Below are positions 1 through 28,320 of a DNA stretch of 64,000 nt, piece by piece. Source of the stretch: Desulfovibrio sp. TomC (lineage in GTDB: Bacteria; Desulfobacterota; Desulfovibrionia; Desulfovibrionales; Desulfovibrionaceae). The notes under the pieces are model-generated. The model was not told where the DNA came from. It saw only the letters and a program-made list of their open reading frames with translations, and did no database searches. Where the stretch lies: the NCBI RefSeq assembly GCF_000801335.2, contig NZ_JSEH01000005.1, forward strand, positions 1-64,000, read 5' to 3'. A program made the translations under genes and the position numbers. Every line of letters begins with the position of its first letter. The stretch's first letter is position 1.

Positions 1-399
1 CGCCACTCGGCCCTGGCCGTCCTGGCCGAGCCGCCGCAGACCGCCGACGTGGCCGGGCTCGCGGCGTTGGTCCGGGCTGTGGCCCAAGGCCGGGCCGCTG
101 TGGCCGCCCTGGGCCGGCGACAGGCCGTGCAGGCCGCCCTGGCCCTGCCGCCGGACGTCGCCGACGTGCGCCCCCTGGCCGAACTCATGCGGGACCTGAC
201 CGCGGCCCGGACTGCTGTGGCCGCCCACACCGCCGCCCTGGCGGACAGGGAGCGCGCGCTTACCGCCTTTGCCGAGGGCGTTGGCCAGCGTCTGGCCGCC
301 CTTGGGGCCTGCCCGTTGTGCGGCGGCGAACTTTCGGCCGAATCCTTTTTGGGCGGCAGCCACCGCCATCAGCCGTCGGCCGTTTCGGAGGCCTCATGA
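1..399 (+). CDS. Rad50/SbcC-like ATPase, N-terminal half, C-terminal end only (5' truncated by window)
   Basis: The reading frame is open from base 1, so the start and any Walker A motif lie upstream of the window. The visible 132 residues are an Ala/Leu/Arg-rich coiled coil that leads into CPLCGGEL (around residue 104). This is a CxxC zinc hook of the type found at the apex of Rad50/SbcC coiled coils. The protein stops only about 24 residues after the hook, where a normal Rad50 would turn back into a second coil. Its TGA overlaps the ATG of the nuclease gene (ATGA), which implies translational coupling. I infer that it is the N-terminal half of a split Rad50 whose other half is encoded after the nuclease. 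Family assignment rests on the hook and context because the ATPase domain is not in view. Confidence 0.7.
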   Translation, partial: RHSALAVLAEPPQTADVAGLAALVRAVAQGRAAVAALGRRQAVQAALALPPDVADVRPLAELMRDLTAARTAVAAHTAALADRERALTAFAEGVGQRLAALGACPLCGGELSAESFLGGSHRHQPSAVSEAS

Positions 400-1349
400 C
401 CCTGCCGGTGCGCCGGGCTGGCGGCCTGCTCCTTATTCCCGATCCCCATGTGGCGGCCACACCGCCCATGCAGCGGCTCGATTCCTACATGGACGACGTG
501 CTGGCCAAGTTGGCTGCCTGTCTGGACCAGGCCGCAGCCGAGGATCTCGTGCCGGTGGTCCTGGGCGATCTGTTCCACTGGCCGCGCGAAAATCCCAACG
601 TGGTCATGGTGGCGCTTATTGAGCTTTTCCGCGACCACCATCCTTACGTGCTGGTCGGCAACCACGACAAATATCAGGCCCGGTTCACGGCCGACACCTC
701 GCTTGCCGTCCTGCGCGCCGCCGGAGTGTGCGAGGTCCTGGACGAGCCCGGGCTCTTTTTGCGCCTGGAGACGCCGACCGGTCCGGCGGTGATCGGCGCG
801 TCCCCGGATGGCGCGGCCATCCCGCTTTCCGTGGACAAGGCAGACGGGGAGGAGAGCGTGTGGCTCACCCACCACAACGTGGGTTTTCCGGACTTTTTGG
901 ACAAGCACGTCAAGATCCGGGAGATCCCGGGCCTGGATTGGCTCATTAACGGCCACATCCACCGGCCCCAGCCGACGGTTGCGGCCGGCTGCACCCGTTG
1001 GGCCAATCCCGGCAACGTGACCCGGCTCAAATTTACCCGCAGCGCCGTGACGCGCGTGCCGGCCGCGGCCGTCTGGCGGCCCGGGGCAGCGGACCTTGTC
1101 CACTGGACCGTGCCGTACCGCCCCTTTGCCGAGGTGTTCCCGGACCAGGAATTCCCGCCCGAAGACAGCGCCCCGGCCGAGGTCCAGTCGCGCTTTCTCG
1201 AAGGCCTGGCCCGGCTGGCCTGGAAGCGCACCCGGGAGGGGGCCGGTCTGGGTGAATTTTTGCGCGCCAACCTCAACCCCGAGCACCCGGAGTCTGCCGT
1301 CATCTGGGAGCTGTACCGCGAGGTCACCGATCATGCCGATGCCGACTAA
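396..1349 (+). CDS. Mre11/SbcD-type metallophosphoesterase
   Basis: This 317-residue protein carries the calcineurin-like phosphoesterase motifs in order: DPHVA near residue 17 (D-x-H), GDLFHW (GD), GNHDK (GNHD), THHN and NGHIHRP (GHxH). Together these bind the two-metal centre. The partner genes on both sides encode Rad50-like pieces, so a Mre11/SbcD-type nuclease role in a DNA end-processing complex is the best inference. It is shorter than E. coli SbcD, with only a brief C-terminal tail, predicted to be helical, that could clamp the ATPase. I chose the ATG at 396 because it overlaps the upstream stop codon (ATGA); an in-frame ATG at 318 would run deep into the previous gene. Its own 3' end overlaps the next start by 17 nt. 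Confidence 0.85.
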   Translation: MTLPVRRAGGLLLIPDPHVAATPPMQRLDSYMDDVLAKLAACLDQAAAEDLVPVVLGDLFHWPRENPNVVMVALIELFRDHHPYVLVGNHDKYQARFTADTSLAVLRAAGVCEVLDEPGLFLRLETPTGPAVIGASPDGAAIPLSVDKADGEESVWLTHHNVGFPDFLDKHVKIREIPGLDWLINGHIHRPQPTVAAGCTRWANPGNVTRLKFTRSAVTRVPAAAVWRPGAADLVHWTVPYRPFAEVFPDQEFPPEDSAPAEVQSRFLEGLARLAWKRTREGAGLGEFLRANLNPEHPESAVIWELYREVTDHADAD

Positions 1350-1650
1350 AGTTGTTGCCGCCGATGCCGACGCCAGCCTGGAACGCGAACTGGCCGGACT
1401 CAAAACCGCTTATGAGCGGTTGCGGGACGACAAGGTGCGCACCGAACAGGATTTGCGCCACCAGCAGACCCAGCTGGCCGAACTGGAAGCCAAGGCCCGG
1501 GCCGATTACGGCACGGCCGATCCCGAAGCCCTGGCCCGGCTTTTGGAAGAAAAACGCCAGGAAAACGCCCGGCTGGTGGCCGAATACCGTGAGCACATTG
1601 CGGCGGTCAGGCGCGATCTCGAGGCCGTGGAGCAGGATTTTGCCGGCTGA
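1333..1650 (+). CDS. Short coiled-coil protein, probable return coil of the split Rad50
   Basis: The 105 residues are almost wholly heptad-like and charged (KTAYERLRDDKVRTEQDLR is typical), with no globular domain. It begins with ATG inside the last codons of the nuclease gene. It ends in a TGA that lies 10 nt past a TTG start in the +1 frame, just before a run of seven T. The following frame continues as coiled coil and then an ATPase domain, so the two frames may be one protein interrupted by a frameshift (real, programmed or a sequencing error). They may also be two separately translated subunits. I cannot decide between these from one sequence. Confidence 0.6.
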   Translation: MPMPTKVVAADADASLERELAGLKTAYERLRDDKVRTEQDLRHQQTQLAELEAKARADYGTADPEALARLLEEKRQENARLVAEYREHIAAVRRDLEAVEQDFAG

Positions 1651-2413
1651 TTTTTTTGAAGCTGCAGGTGGTCAAACATCGCAAGCATCGCCGGATCTGG
1701 CTGCCCTGGTCGAGGAGCGCCAGGACCTGACGCGCCGCCTGGATCGGCTCTCCGGGCAGGCCTCGGCCAAGGCCGAGGCCTTTATCGAGTCGCGCCGCCA
1801 ACTCCTGGCTGCCGAGGCCTTTCTCGACCTTGCTCCCCGGGCGGCGGCGCGCCTGGAAGACCTGACCCGGGAACTTTTTGGCGAGGTGCTCGATGAGATC
1901 GAAACCGACCTGACCCATGCCGTGCGCGAAATCCTTGGCCAAAACCGTACCGTGGTCACCCGGCGCGAGGTCAAAAACGGCAAGCTCTTCATTGAATTCG
2001 AGATGGAGCAGGACGGCAGGACCGAGGACATCTACGTCGGCCAGGGCGGGTCGGTGTGCAACATCCTGTCCGTCGGCCTGCGGCTGGTCGCCCTGTCCCA
2101 GCTCGACCCCGACCGGCACAGGCCCTTTCTGGTGCTCGATGAACAAGACTGCTGGCTGCGCCCGGACCTCGTGCCCGGGTTCGTGCGCCTGATTGCCGCC
2201 ATCGCCGACCGGCTCGGCATTCAGGTGCTTTATATCAGCCACCACCCGGTCGATCTGTTTGCCCTGGAGGCCCGGCGCGTGTTCGGCCTGCGCCCGGGGC
2301 GCGAAAACGGCCCGACCCTGACGATCCTGGCCGATCGAACGGCCGGCGCTGCCGGTGCGGCCGAGCTTGCGGCTCCGTACGCCGAGGGCCGGACGGCCCC
2401 GGGCGGCGAATAA
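1640..2413 (+). CDS. Rad50-like ATPase, C-terminal half
   Basis: After some 70 residues of coiled coil the protein has a divergent ABC signature (GQGGSVCNILSVGLR), a Walker B with catalytic Glu (FLVLDEQD) and a switch histidine region (YISHHP). This is the order of a Rad50 C-terminal lobe. The signature fits the GxGG...SxxLR form I recall from phage-type Rad50 relatives better than the classic LSGGE. There is no Walker A in this frame, so it needs the N-terminal half encoded before 399. No ATG exists in the real part of the frame; the TTG at 1640 is the only plausible start near the open end, and ribosome-site support is weak. A frameshift joining it to the preceding ORF is the alternative. 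Confidence 0.7.
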   Translation: MPADFFEAAGGQTSQASPDLAALVEERQDLTRRLDRLSGQASAKAEAFIESRRQLLAAEAFLDLAPRAAARLEDLTRELFGEVLDEIETDLTHAVREILGQNRTVVTRREVKNGKLFIEFEMEQDGRTEDIYVGQGGSVCNILSVGLRLVALSQLDPDRHRPFLVLDEQDCWLRPDLVPGFVRLIAAIADRLGIQVLYISHHPVDLFALEARRVFGLRPGRENGPTLTILADRTAGAAGAAELAAPYAEGRTAPGGE

Positions 2414-3490: not shown

Positions 3491-3585
3491 CTGGCGCGCA
3501 TCGGACTTGGCAACGCGCCCGGTCAAATCCAACGGACCCCAGGTGGGATTCCAAAGGGCTCAGCCCTTTGGCCGCCGGAGGCTCT
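3491..3585. repeat. Palindromic repeat, type A, copy 1
   Basis: The core at 3537-3582 contains a 21-nt perfect hairpin (CCAAAGGGCT and its complement around one base) next to GGCCGCCGGAGGC. Read in reverse, it matches the copy at 4846-4940 over roughly 95 bases including the flank. It sits between two convergent genes. Confidence 0.8.
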
Positions 3586-4845: not shown

Positions 4846-4940
4846 AGTGCCTCCGGCGGCCAAAGGGCTGAGCCCTTTGGAATCCCACCTGGGGGGCGTT
4901 TGATTTGCCCGAGTGCGTTGCCACGTCGATGCGCGCAAGG
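4846..4940. repeat. Palindromic repeat, type A, copy 2
   Basis: The core at 4849-4894 is GCCTCCGGCGGCC, then a 21-nt perfect hairpin with the same stem as copy 1. It is followed by a flank that also matches copy 1 in reverse. It lies between the cupin and the AraC gene. Confidence 0.8.
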
Positions 4941-5029: not shown

Positions 5030-5875
5030 ATGGCCGTAGCACCCATCCTGACCGTCGCCCGGCATCCGGCTATGCCGGGACTTGAGGCCGTGACCGGGAT
5101 GGGTGTGGCCGCCGACATCGTGGCCCATGCCCACATGGCCGTGGTGGTGGGGCTGTGTTTGAACGGCGGACGACGCATCCTGTCCGGGGGCGGCCAGTGG
5201 CCCATCGAGGCCGGGCAAGGCTTTGTGGTGCCGGCCGGGGTCCGCCACAGCTGTTCGCCGCTGGATGCGGCCGGGCACGCCTATCTGGCCCTGGCCATCC
5301 GGCCGGAAGCGTTGCTGCGGGCCGGGGTGGCGTCAGGCGCGCCGGAAGTCTGGGTGCGCTCGTGGCAGGGGCGGGAGCCGGCCGCATTGGTTGAGCGGCT
5401 GGCCGGCCTCCTGGCCGGGGAAGGGGACGGAGCCGGCGAGGCCCTGGAGATACTGGCCGCCCTGGCCGCCAGCCTTGGCCTCAAACCGGGCATTGCCCTG
5501 CCGCCCCATCCGGCCACGCTGCGGGCCAGGGCGGCCATGGACGCCGATCCGGCCGCTGCCCACAGCCTGTCTGCCCTGGCCCGGCTGGCCGGGGTCGGGG
5601 AAACCTATCTGGAGCGGGTTTTTGCCCGCGATGTCGGAATGCCCGTGGGCCAATATCTGCTCACCCGCCGGGTCCGGCTGGCCGCCTCGCGCATTGCCGA
5701 CGGCGAACCCCTGGCCGAGGCCGCCCTGGCCGCCGGCTTTTACGACCAGAGCCACCTGACCCGCCATTTTAAGCAACGCATGGGCGTCCCCCCGGGGGGG
5801 TATAGCGAGGAGAGACGGGAAGAGCCGGCGGCCGGGGATAAAGGCAGAAGATGCCTCCGGCGGCCAAAGGGGTGA
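5030..5875 (+). CDS. AraC-family transcriptional regulator
   Basis: This 281-residue protein has an N-terminal cupin-like sensing region (GFVVPAGVRHSC) and a C-terminal pair of helix-turn-helix motifs. The first is LSALARLAGVGETYLERVF and the second is AEAALAAGFYDQSHLTRHFK, followed by GVPPGGY. The start at 5030 follows AAAGGAG; longer frames upstream would be translated from repeat DNA. Its C-terminal tail (RRCLRRPKG) is encoded by a palindromic repeat that begins inside the gene at 5853 and supplies the stop codon. The native C-terminus was therefore probably a little shorter. The target genes are unknown; the cupin upstream is a candidate. Confidence 0.88.
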   Translation: MAVAPILTVARHPAMPGLEAVTGMGVAADIVAHAHMAVVVGLCLNGGRRILSGGGQWPIEAGQGFVVPAGVRHSCSPLDAAGHAYLALAIRPEALLRAGVASGAPEVWVRSWQGREPAALVERLAGLLAGEGDGAGEALEILAALAASLGLKPGIALPPHPATLRARAAMDADPAAAHSLSALARLAGVGETYLERVFARDVGMPVGQYLLTRRVRLAASRIADGEPLAEAALAAGFYDQSHLTRHFKQRMGVPPGGYSEERREEPAAGDKGRRCLRRPKG

Positions 5876-5987
5876 CCCCTTTGGAATCCCTCTTGGAAGG
5901 CAAGCTGTCAGGGGGGTGACGCCTGCACCTTGAAAACTTTCCCCATTGCAGGGGTCCGGGGGGATGATCCCCCCGGCCGCCGGAGGC
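5853..5987. repeat. Composite palindromic element (type A plus type B) with inverted ends
   Basis: The left part carries a 21-nt perfect hairpin whose stem is CCAAAGGGGT, differing from other type A copies by compensated bases. The right part (5950-5987) is a type B unit with its own 21-nt hairpin (CCGGGGGGAT stem). The outer ends, GCCTCCGGCGGCC at 5853 and GGCCGCCGGAGGC at 5975, are 13-bp inverted repeats, so the 135-bp unit looks like a small mobile cassette. It lies between convergent genes and overlaps the end of the AraC gene. Confidence 0.75.
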
Positions 5988-8368: not shown

Positions 8369-9193
8369 GTGTCGAAGAAAAAAGCAGAACGCCCTGATCC
8401 GACAAGCCTCGGTCTGGCCCGGGTGGGGGTGGAAAGCCATGCCCACCTCGACGGCGAGGACTTTTCGCCCGAGGAACTCGGGGACGTCCTTGACCGGGCG
8501 GCGGCGGCCGGTCTGGCCCAGGTGGGCAACGTGTTTCTGGGGCCGGCGGCCTATCAGGCCAACCGGGGGCTGTTTGCCAACCGGCCCGAGGTCTTTTTCC
8601 TGATGGGCATCCACCCCTGCGATGCGGCTAAGGCCCCGGCCGGGGCGGTTGCAGCCATGGAAGCGGCTTTTCGGGCCGATCCCAACCTGCGGGCCGTGGG
8701 CGAGATCGGACTCGACTACCACTGGGACGCCACCACGGCCGAGCTGCAAAAGGCGCTTTTTCGGGACCAGCTGGCCCTGGCCCGGGAGCGTAACCTGCCG
8801 GTCGCCGTCCACAGCCGCGAGGCCGAGGCCGACACCCTGGCCATCCTCGACGACCTGGGCTTTCCCGGCCGGCCGCTGGTGTGGCACTGCTTTGGCGGCG
8901 ACGCCGCCCTGGCCCGGGAAATCACCTCGCGCGGCTACCATATCTCCATTCCCGGTCCCGTGACCTATCGCAAGAACACCGCCCTGGCCGAGGCCGTGGC
9001 CGGCCTGGATACGGCCCGTCTGCTCCTTGAGACCGATGCCCCGTACCTGACGCCCGAACCCTGGCGCGGCAAACGCAACGAACCGGCCCTGATCGTGTTT
9101 ACGGCCCGGCGCGTGGCCGAATTGCTGGACCTGCCCGTGGCCGATCTCTGGCAGTTGGCCGGGGACAATGCCCGGGCTTTTTTCCGGTTGTGA
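8369..9193 (+). CDS. tatD: TatD-family metal-dependent hydrolase
   Basis: This 274-residue TIM-barrel hydrolase has the metal ligand motifs SHAHLD (replacing the more common DTHCHL), GEIGLDYH, VHSREAE, WHCFGG and LLETDAPYL. These are typical of TatD/YcfH DNase-like enzymes. The start is taken as GTG at 8369 with AGGA eight nt upstream. An in-frame GTG at 8348 is possible, and much longer frames run antisense into the MscS gene. The gene stands alone, divergent from the channel. The biochemical substrate of this family (DNA 3' ends or D-aminoacyl bonds) is not settled by sequence. Confidence 0.88.
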   Translation: MSKKKAERPDPTSLGLARVGVESHAHLDGEDFSPEELGDVLDRAAAAGLAQVGNVFLGPAAYQANRGLFANRPEVFFLMGIHPCDAAKAPAGAVAAMEAAFRADPNLRAVGEIGLDYHWDATTAELQKALFRDQLALARERNLPVAVHSREAEADTLAILDDLGFPGRPLVWHCFGGDAALAREITSRGYHISIPGPVTYRKNTALAEAVAGLDTARLLLETDAPYLTPEPWRGKRNEPALIVFTARRVAELLDLPVADLWQLAGDNARAFFRL

Positions 9194-9295
9194 CGGCGGC
9201 GTGGCTGGGGCCAAAGGCTCCGCGGCTTGCCCAAAAGCCGGTGGCGCGCTAGGGTTGCTCCATGTCCTTTTGACCAAAACGGGAGACCCGAAGCT

Positions 9296-9937
9296 ATGGC
9301 CCTCGAAATCACGACCCAGGGCGACATCGACCAGATTGTCGTCTCCTCGCTGTCCCGCGCCTTTGTGCAGAAAATTTATCGGCACTGCTGGGGCAAGAAC
9401 AATACGCCCTATTTTGCCGGCAACTGCTTCAAGGGCGTGCTCTATTTCGACGAACGCCTGGCCATCAAATACGCCGAGGACGTGGGATTCCCCTGGCGGG
9501 GCTGGCTGTCTGCGCCAAAGTTCCACCATCGCACCGGGGCCAGCCTGGACCATAGCCTGGGCCTGACCGTTCGCCACGACCAGGGCGAGCTGGATCTCTC
9601 GGCCATGGGGACGGCGCTGGTGGAAAACCGGCTGCGCCTTGACGGGTTCCTGGAACTGCTTGGCGAAGACGAGGTCCTGGCCGTGCTTGGCGCTGTGGAC
9701 AAGGGCGAGATGGTCTTTTCCCTGCCGGATTTCACCGGACCCTTTGATCCGGAAAAGCTGACCATTGCCGTGGACCGGCTGTCGGATCTGTACTGCGAGG
9801 AGACCGTGGTCACGGGGATGCTCTACGACGGGCGCACCATGAGCATGGAAACCGGGGAATCCCGGGGCAAGAGCATGGTCGATCCGCTGCTGATCGGCCG
9901 CGACGGCAAACTGCTCGACATGTACGATTTCGGCTAG
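9296..9937 (+). CDS. Conserved-looking protein of unknown function
   Basis: This 213-residue soluble protein is acidic, with no signal peptide or membrane segment, and I recognise no domain. Codon use is like that of its neighbours and GGGAGA precedes the ATG, so the gene is very likely real. Notable stretches are KIYRHCWGKNNTPYFAGNCF near the N-terminus and MLYDGRTMSMETGESRG near the C-terminus. It lies between tatD and a response regulator without overlap, so context gives no role. Confidence 0.8.
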   Translation: MALEITTQGDIDQIVVSSLSRAFVQKIYRHCWGKNNTPYFAGNCFKGVLYFDERLAIKYAEDVGFPWRGWLSAPKFHHRTGASLDHSLGLTVRHDQGELDLSAMGTALVENRLRLDGFLELLGEDEVLAVLGAVDKGEMVFSLPDFTGPFDPEKLTIAVDRLSDLYCEETVVTGMLYDGRTMSMETGESRGKSMVDPLLIGRDGKLLDMYDFG

Positions 9938-9966
9938 CGCTGCACAGGGGGCGGGAACGGGAGTGC

Positions 9967-27877: not shown

Positions 27878-28320
27878 GCGGTACTCCTTTTGAGGCATGG
27901 CCTGCCTCTTGCTCGCAGGGTAGAAGGCCTGCGGCAGGATGTCCAGCCGTGCAGGAGGGGTGCGGCGTATGGACGAGTGGGCTTGCAACGCTGCCGTGTT
28001 TCGTAATCTTTGCTGGAAAGCGCAATGATTTCAGAGAATGGAGTGTCACACAAGGCGTGGCTGACGGCTGGTTGCAGTCGCGTATGAATTCTTTGTAAGG
28101 CAAAGGCTGGTTCCGGCCCCCGAAGAAGCTGTGGTTCCCGTCAAGCTTAAGCACCAACCAGTTGCAGTCCCAGTCTTTTTTCGTCTTTTCTTGCGCAATG
28201 TCCGCTTCCCGGCTCGGTAATGGGCATGGGCAAATCAAGCCAACCCCAGGTGGGATTCCAAAGGGCACTGCCCTTTGGCCGCCGGAGGCCTCTTCCCTTC
28301 CCTTCTCCTCCCCCTCTCCC
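27878..28320. other. 443-bp intergenic region with a type A repeat
   Basis: No gene is credible here. The AT-richer part at 27980-28190 probably carries the nitroreductase promoter on the minus strand. The right part is occupied by the palindromic repeat at 28244-28289 next to the HD-GYP stop codon. Confidence 0.45.
28244..28289. repeat. Palindromic repeat, type A, copy 4
   Basis: It contains the 21-nt perfect hairpin with stem CCAAAGGGCA, where the tenth pair is changed on both sides relative to the copies at 3537 and 4849. GGCCGCCGGAGGC follows. It lies 32 bp past the stop codon of the HD-GYP gene. Confidence 0.8.

Follow-up and report, generated by a model that had tools for sequence, protein, structure and literature searches.

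Rad50 and SMC machines are understood as made of one chain, with an arm formed by its two halves zipped together, and the left extremity of contig C5 of Desulfovibrio sp. TomC raises the question of whether such a machine can also be built from separate pieces. The window analysed here comprises bases 1-64000 of this contig (the genome has 5.07 Mb in 84 contigs), and its first 2413 bases contain four genes, here named N, M, S and C. N encodes the N-terminal half of a Rad50-type protein, M an Mre11/SbcD-type metallophosphoesterase, S a short coil protein, and C a Rad50-type C-terminal lobe. Judging from the sequences, it is likely that the four products form a Mre11-Rad50 (SbcCD-type) complex for DNA-end processing, chromosomally encoded and analogous to SbcCD. 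Since the set recurs in several phyla, it looks like a genuine and unrecognised way of building a Mre11-Rad50 machine.

A Rad50-type protein encoded in separate genes

The original prediction described a split Rad50-Mre11 module, in which a hook-ending first gene is followed by the nuclease and then by the other half of Rad50. N stops, as described there, shortly after its hook (25 residues beyond the last Cys of CPLC) and is joined to M by an ATGA overlap. S overlaps the 3' end of M and C overlaps S, if it begins, as is likely, at a TTG with GGAG seven bases ahead; with this putative start, all junctions in the window show the overlap that had been proposed (Table 1). The divergence of the C-lobe signature also stands, C showing GQGGSVCNILSVGLR, unlike LSGGE. 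The C-terminal half does lie after the nuclease gene, but it is divided between two genes, one for the coil piece (S) and one for the C-lobe (C), and the set therefore has four genes and not three.

The window opens at base 1 of the contig, and thus the Walker A part of N is not visible in it. This 5' part is located at the end of contig C22 of the same genome (G000:C22:2-874, minus strand) and is 64% identical to residues 1-289 of the full-length N of a congener, which contains GPNNTGKS. Genome G013 (94% identity in M) has an uninterrupted N gene ahead of M. Two observations had been named beforehand as contrary to a split Rad50: a first gene without an ATPase N-lobe and a full-length SbcC upstream. 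The Walker A half was found on C22 and in the family profile, the gene upstream of N on C22 is relA/spoT, and the split reading was borne out.

N frames were compared in a sample of 52 of 66, with lengths of 395-570 aa (median 448 aa), 14 being dropped by length. In 49 aligned N proteins, Walker A (GPNN.GKS) is invariant and HxGNQR.P.FLL is conserved, and both the N-lobe and the Q-loop are present. Among solved structures the family profile matches Smc6 best (E=8.6e-10), followed by Rad50 N-lobes (best 2.7e-8) and Rad50 hooks (8.8e-6 for 6zff, and 9.1e-5). The first hook Cys is 18-38 residues from the C-terminus in all 52 proteins of the sample; no CxxC was seen in the N of locus L201, one of the 14 frames dropped, and the Pfam hook model alone is under its cut-off on the window fragment (12.1 of 24.3 bits). 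As reference for canonical SbcC we used seven intact single frames of the same order, with 957-1230 aa, a mid-chain CPxC and LSGGE, six of which were aligned. N matches them with an hhalign probability of 96%; its arm shows no similarity to the SbcC coil. The arm shows PP pairs spaced 38-40 residues in 98 of 114 spacings, with two to six PP marks per arm among the proteins listed, and the signal at lag 39 exceeds 200 shuffles by 46 standard deviations.

The window M protein matches Pfam Metallophos (E=1.4e-7), and SbcD/Mre11 are the only solved matches of its family profile at E<=0.01 (best 1.2e-6). It keeps five phosphoesterase motifs (DxH, GD, GNHD, HH and GHxH), and D16, H18, G57-D58, GNHD 88-91, H159 and GH.H 186-189 are invariant in 44 sequences. 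C shows signature, Walker B and H-loop motifs in collinear order, and its weak alignment with the canonical SbcC C-lobe extends from end to end, with Walker B and the H-loop in register; its signature is divergent. Among solved structures, the matches of its family profile are to an SMC-Scc1 entry (E=1.2e-4) and to an ABC transporter (E=0.0022). S aligns specifically to the returning coil of SbcC, with its YGTxD turn on the SbcC FGxKDP and a score of 33.5, versus at most 24.2 for 30 column shuffles, at most 20.0 for reversed or rotated S, and 16.9 for the outgoing coil of SbcC. This likeness is suggestive, not proof, and S may be a helical hairpin with YGTxD at its turn. The possibility that S is an unrelated small open reading frame was rejected, because S shows conservation in several phyla and is found ahead of C in five of the six plasmids examined.

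In the proposed complex, N would contribute the N-terminal ATPase lobe, the repeat arm and, at its extreme C-terminus, the zinc hook; C would contribute the lobe with signature and Walker B, S a small segment of the returning coil as a protein of its own, and M the nuclease. N and C would pair into one ABC half-site, two such units would dimerise on ATP, and the hook would join two arms through zinc. S would pack on the base or the arm of N, and M would bind through its conserved C-terminal tail and cut blocked or hairpin ends. A stoichiometric complex of the four products is plausible.

Table 1. Features of the window, with positions counted from its first base.
Feature	Position	Strand	Comment
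N, Rad50-type N-terminal half, 3' end only (arm and zinc hook)	1..399	+	5' part with N-lobe on contig C22
CPLC zinc-hook motif of N	310..321	+	both Cys invariant in 49 aligned N
M, Mre11/SbcD-type metallophosphoesterase, 317 aa	396..1349	+	Pfam Metallophos, profile against structures, conserved motifs
S, 105-aa coil protein	1333..1650	+	resembles SbcC returning coil
C, Rad50-type C-lobe (signature, Walker B, H-loop), 257 aa with the likely TTG start at 1640	1640..2413	+
Divergent ABC signature GQGGSVCNILSVGLR of C	2039..2083	+
Walker B FLVLDEQ of C	2126..2146	+
29-base element, copy 1	3554-3582	+
29-base element, copy 2	4849-4877	-
29-base element, copy 3	5853-5881	-
29-base element, copy 4	28261-28289	+

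Distribution in chromosomes, plasmids and phages

Among 40 genomes, comprising that of the window and those of relatives, 20 contain M and 18 contain C. Both were found in the TomC genome and in the 13 other members of the genus searched, four of which are in 1-6 contigs. Among 247 genomes of the host's order, 88 contain M and 85 contain C, all 85 being among the 88. The three genomes with only M (G023, G207 and G026) show a shorter M match, and the two that were aligned do not have the conserved C-terminal tail. The orphan M relatives at L062 (~9117-9944, minus strand) and L063 (12460-13245, plus strand) lack this tail, and no N, S or C was found in the fetched stretch.

A scan with the C profile, using one genome per species, gave 124 relatives, of which 80 were kept as loci. 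These span Desulfobacterota, Planctomycetota and Bacillota and belong to Desulfovibrionaceae, Syntrophobacteraceae, Desulfacinum, Desulfobacca, Desulfobacterales, Planctomycetota, two Bacillota bins, and others. With hidden Markov models for the four genes, the order N-M-S-C on a single strand was found in 66 of the 80 loci, from many genera, and the homologue search proposed with the original prediction came out in its favour. The remaining loci show M-S-C (four), S-C (one) or C alone (nine). None of the 80 contains a natural fusion among the four genes, and odd or interrupted frames are limited to two of the 66: L201 (N) and L220 (M, S and C). Overlaps are present at 57 of 66 N-M junctions, 63 of 68 M-S junctions and 41 of 70 S-C junctions. 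In a sample of 392 planctomycete genomes, 22 match C at E<=1e-3, and for 17 of these E is below 1e-80.

Trees of the N-lobe, M and C were obtained from 50 loci, after 30 of the 80 were dropped for missing or odd parts, with groups assigned by hand from record titles. The three trees recover the same groups, and the distances are concordant among N, M and C (r 0.83-0.95). Two Desulfobacterales sit within the planctomycete branch in all three trees (support 0.74 for N, 0.96 for M and 0.15 for C), as if their N, M and C had moved as a unit.

Among plasmids, the search with C gave 21 records of 253-1324 kb, from hosts that include Vibrio, Pseudomonas, Variovorax, Bosea, Alteromonas, Aeromonas, Rhizobium and others. 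Six large proteobacterial plasmids were examined, and they show the C-lobe fused ahead of the N-lobe, which corresponds to a circularly permuted Rad50. With the whole fused protein of Bosea as query, all 21 records match as a single piece spanning both lobes. Five plasmid arms were examined: a CxxC is near the end of the chain, and none shows PP pairs at a regular spacing of 39 residues. The fused gene is followed by an M-like match, at E 5e-63 to 1e-5 in five plasmids and 0.09 in the Aeromonas one, and two of these genes are annotated as metallophosphoesterase. An S-like match is ahead of the fused gene in five of the six plasmids; in Alteromonas a 531-bp gene is there instead.

Bacillus phage vB_BboS-125 encodes a hook-ending N, followed by an AP2 gene, a coil-like protein of 78 aa, C and, farther on, M. 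In the record its N and C genes carry separate annotations (exonuclease and ATPase), and the 78-aa protein gives no match to the S model. No gene is annotated over the Mre11-like frame (326 aa, L237 8223-9203). Phage searches by tblastn gave three records with N, two of them the same phage, and four with the phage C-lobe; with M, C or the fused protein there was no match. In viral contigs, scans with C and with the fused plasmid protein gave no relative, and the scan with M gave four weak matches (24-42% identity). The permuted plasmid forms and the phage form imply that the hook-split design is wider than the window's family.

End processing, tethering or defence

Genomes with M and C differ from the rest of the order in SbcD. 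Any match to SbcD (TIGR00619) is present in 10 of the 85 genomes with M and C versus 148 of the 162 without, and 75 of the 85 show no match at all. Matches over the cut-off are present in one of the 85 and 48 of the 162, and by genus the counts are four of 17 with the set and 33 of 33 without. The search of the TomC genome gave neither an intact SbcC nor an intact SbcD, only a remnant and two matches to the N-lobe alone. In these lineages the set probably takes the place of SbcCD.

The remnant, on contig C14 at ~137.1-137.5 kb (L043, L096), comprises a canonical sbcD start and sbcC end, with much between them missing. It suggests that an ordinary SbcCD was formerly present here and then lost. 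The adjoining gene we take to be RloC-like.

Several results weigh against an SbcCD analogue. M reaches 15.2 bits against the NCBIfam sbcd cut-off of 77.65, its best NCBIfam match is PdeM, also under the cut-off (23.4 of 150 bits), and hhalign with same-order SbcD gives 8.8% over 80 columns. The match of C with canonical C-lobes is weak (hhalign probability 3.8%, E=0.011), and C shows no Pfam match over cut-off. The match of S with SbcC has a probability of only 25-37%, and its weak solved-structure matches include no Rad50, the best (E=0.0049) belonging to another family. The complementarity with SbcD is confounded by shared ancestry, which inflates the figures, and SbcC itself was searched only in the TomC genome. 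Outside the order, 16 of 34 chosen set-bearing genomes have an SbcD-like match, one of them over the cut-off. As to linkage, nine of the 80 loci have C alone, M being elsewhere in seven of these genomes and not found in two; C is separated by a 1.4 kb gap in G009 and on another contig in G018; and in G004 and G011 (L055, L056) it is ~5.5 kb from N-M-S on the opposite strand, from which it follows that one shared transcript is not required.

An artefact of assembly or frameshift, or the decay of an SbcC gene, might be supposed to account for the split from a window that begins within N at a contig end, and from six of 18 set-bearing related genomes in which a contig end interrupts N, perhaps because of its internal 39-residue repeats. 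However, the four frames are alike in G004 (one contig) and in G005, G008 and G010 (3-6 contigs), the split is seen in many genera with conserved motifs, and this conservation refutes such an origin. Joining of S to C, or of N to M, by a programmed frameshift was rejected because the junctions vary and C is kilobases away in some genomes. The set could also be an SMC-like DNA tether or loader, with a regulatory or inactive phosphoesterase and no end-processing nuclease, as Smc6 is the best solved match of N, the signature of C is far from LSGGE, the repeat-built arm does not resemble the SbcC coil and M is only distantly related to SbcD. We consider this unlikely: all metal-binding motifs of M are kept in the 44 aligned members, and N terminates in a Rad50-type zinc hook, not in an SMC hinge.

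The original prediction had left two functions side by side, a housekeeping variant of SbcCD and an anti-phage module, in which a Rad50-like sensor and the Mre11-like nuclease would attack the DNA ends of invaders. SMC-like ATPases are known in defence systems such as Wadjet and Lamassu (consulted parts of PMC10586767), relatives of the set are on large plasmids and in a phage, and C shows a weak match to mad8 (E=7e-4), the best PADLOC match of the set. The suggested defence-island check covered 97 proteins flanking 34 loci (of 122 extracted), searched with PADLOC at E<=1e-10, with 40 other genes of the window as control. The flanking proteins include six mad2 matches, a strong match to PDC-S05 (7e-143) and one to PDC-S23 (2.7e-49), but each family other than mad2, among the 25 of 39 listed, is found in one protein, and the control genes match mad3 (two), mad2 (one) and mad8 (one). 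Flank Pfam families are mostly of metabolism, transport and signalling (first 25 of 127 listed), and the scanned neighbours include relA/spoT, transport proteins, MurJ and malate synthase. We read this as no defence island around the set, though isolated candidates exist. With M and C in all 13 other congeners searched and the concordance of N, M and C distances, an anti-phage role is left unsupported and appears very unlikely. The housekeeping variant is favoured because of its presence in the congeners, the complementarity with SbcD and the mostly housekeeping flanks.

Elsewhere in the window, a 29-base element with a short palindrome (AAGGGCTCAGCCCTTTGG...) is present in four copies with 0-2 mismatches, and none is given by 100 shuffles. 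It looks like a dispersed repeat.

Relation to known Mre11-Rad50 arrangements

The set has in common with SbcCD a Walker A N-lobe, a CxxC zinc hook and an adjacent Mre11-type phosphoesterase; C, which has motifs for signature, Walker B and H-loop, would correspond to the C-lobe. In SbcCD, however, Rad50 is one chain folding back at the hook, as in the seven same-order frames, while here there are three chains, M lies between the Rad50 halves, the arm of N shows the 39-residue PP repeats, and LSGGE is replaced by GQGGSVCNILSVGLR. T4 gp46 is a single chain as well, unlike phage vB_BboS-125, in which N and C are separate genes. This phage shares the combination of ATPase and nuclease with the phage Rad50/Mre11 pairs, such as T4 gp46/gp47 (consulted parts of PMC3175470) and the SbcC/SbcD of jumbo phages (consulted parts of PMC7824862). 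Mre11/Rad50 fusions are likewise rearranged layouts of both activities, on plasmids and in phages, but they join Mre11 to Rad50, whereas here Rad50 is cut and the plasmid form joins the C-lobe before the N-lobe. Two of these fusions are described without one P-loop segment of SbcC (Yoshida et al., 2011; consulted parts of PMC3175470), and they may be the same phenomenon as the hook-split Rad50.

A Rad50/SMC-like ATPase is also common to the set and to RloC, Lamassu and Wadjet. In RloC and the SMC-like defence systems the partners are a tRNase and JetD/LmuA, respectively. No tRNase or JetD/LmuA-like partner was recognised here, and the PADLOC matches of the set are weak. RloC has a zinc hook in its Rad50-like region, according to the title of a reference in PMC7824862. 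In searches of open-access papers, no title or opening of an abstract describes the four-gene hook-split set (subscription papers and preprints are outside this scope), and the consulted parts of PMC3175470, PMC7824862, PMC9389158, PMC12153180 and PMC10586767 do not describe it.

Tentatively, and with more doubt than confidence, the set and its permuted relatives could be taken as a distinct architectural class of Rad50. Its chain would in every case terminate at the hook, and its arm would differ from the usual antiparallel two-strand coil. In the N-M-S-C branch, the arm would be a modular stalk of 39-residue units, and S, with two putative helices of about one unit each, would dock on it as a light chain on a lever arm. 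Such a class would span chromosomes, large plasmids and phages and include natural permutants, so that the order lobe-hook-lobe would not be needed for Rad50 function; that the regular PP repeats were not seen in the plasmid forms weighs against this proposal.

A complex of separate halves, together with a natural permutant, would show which chain links are needed, and arm, hook and lobes could be swapped or removed as separate proteins. The set would also explain how many Desulfovibrionaceae cope without a recognisable SbcD.

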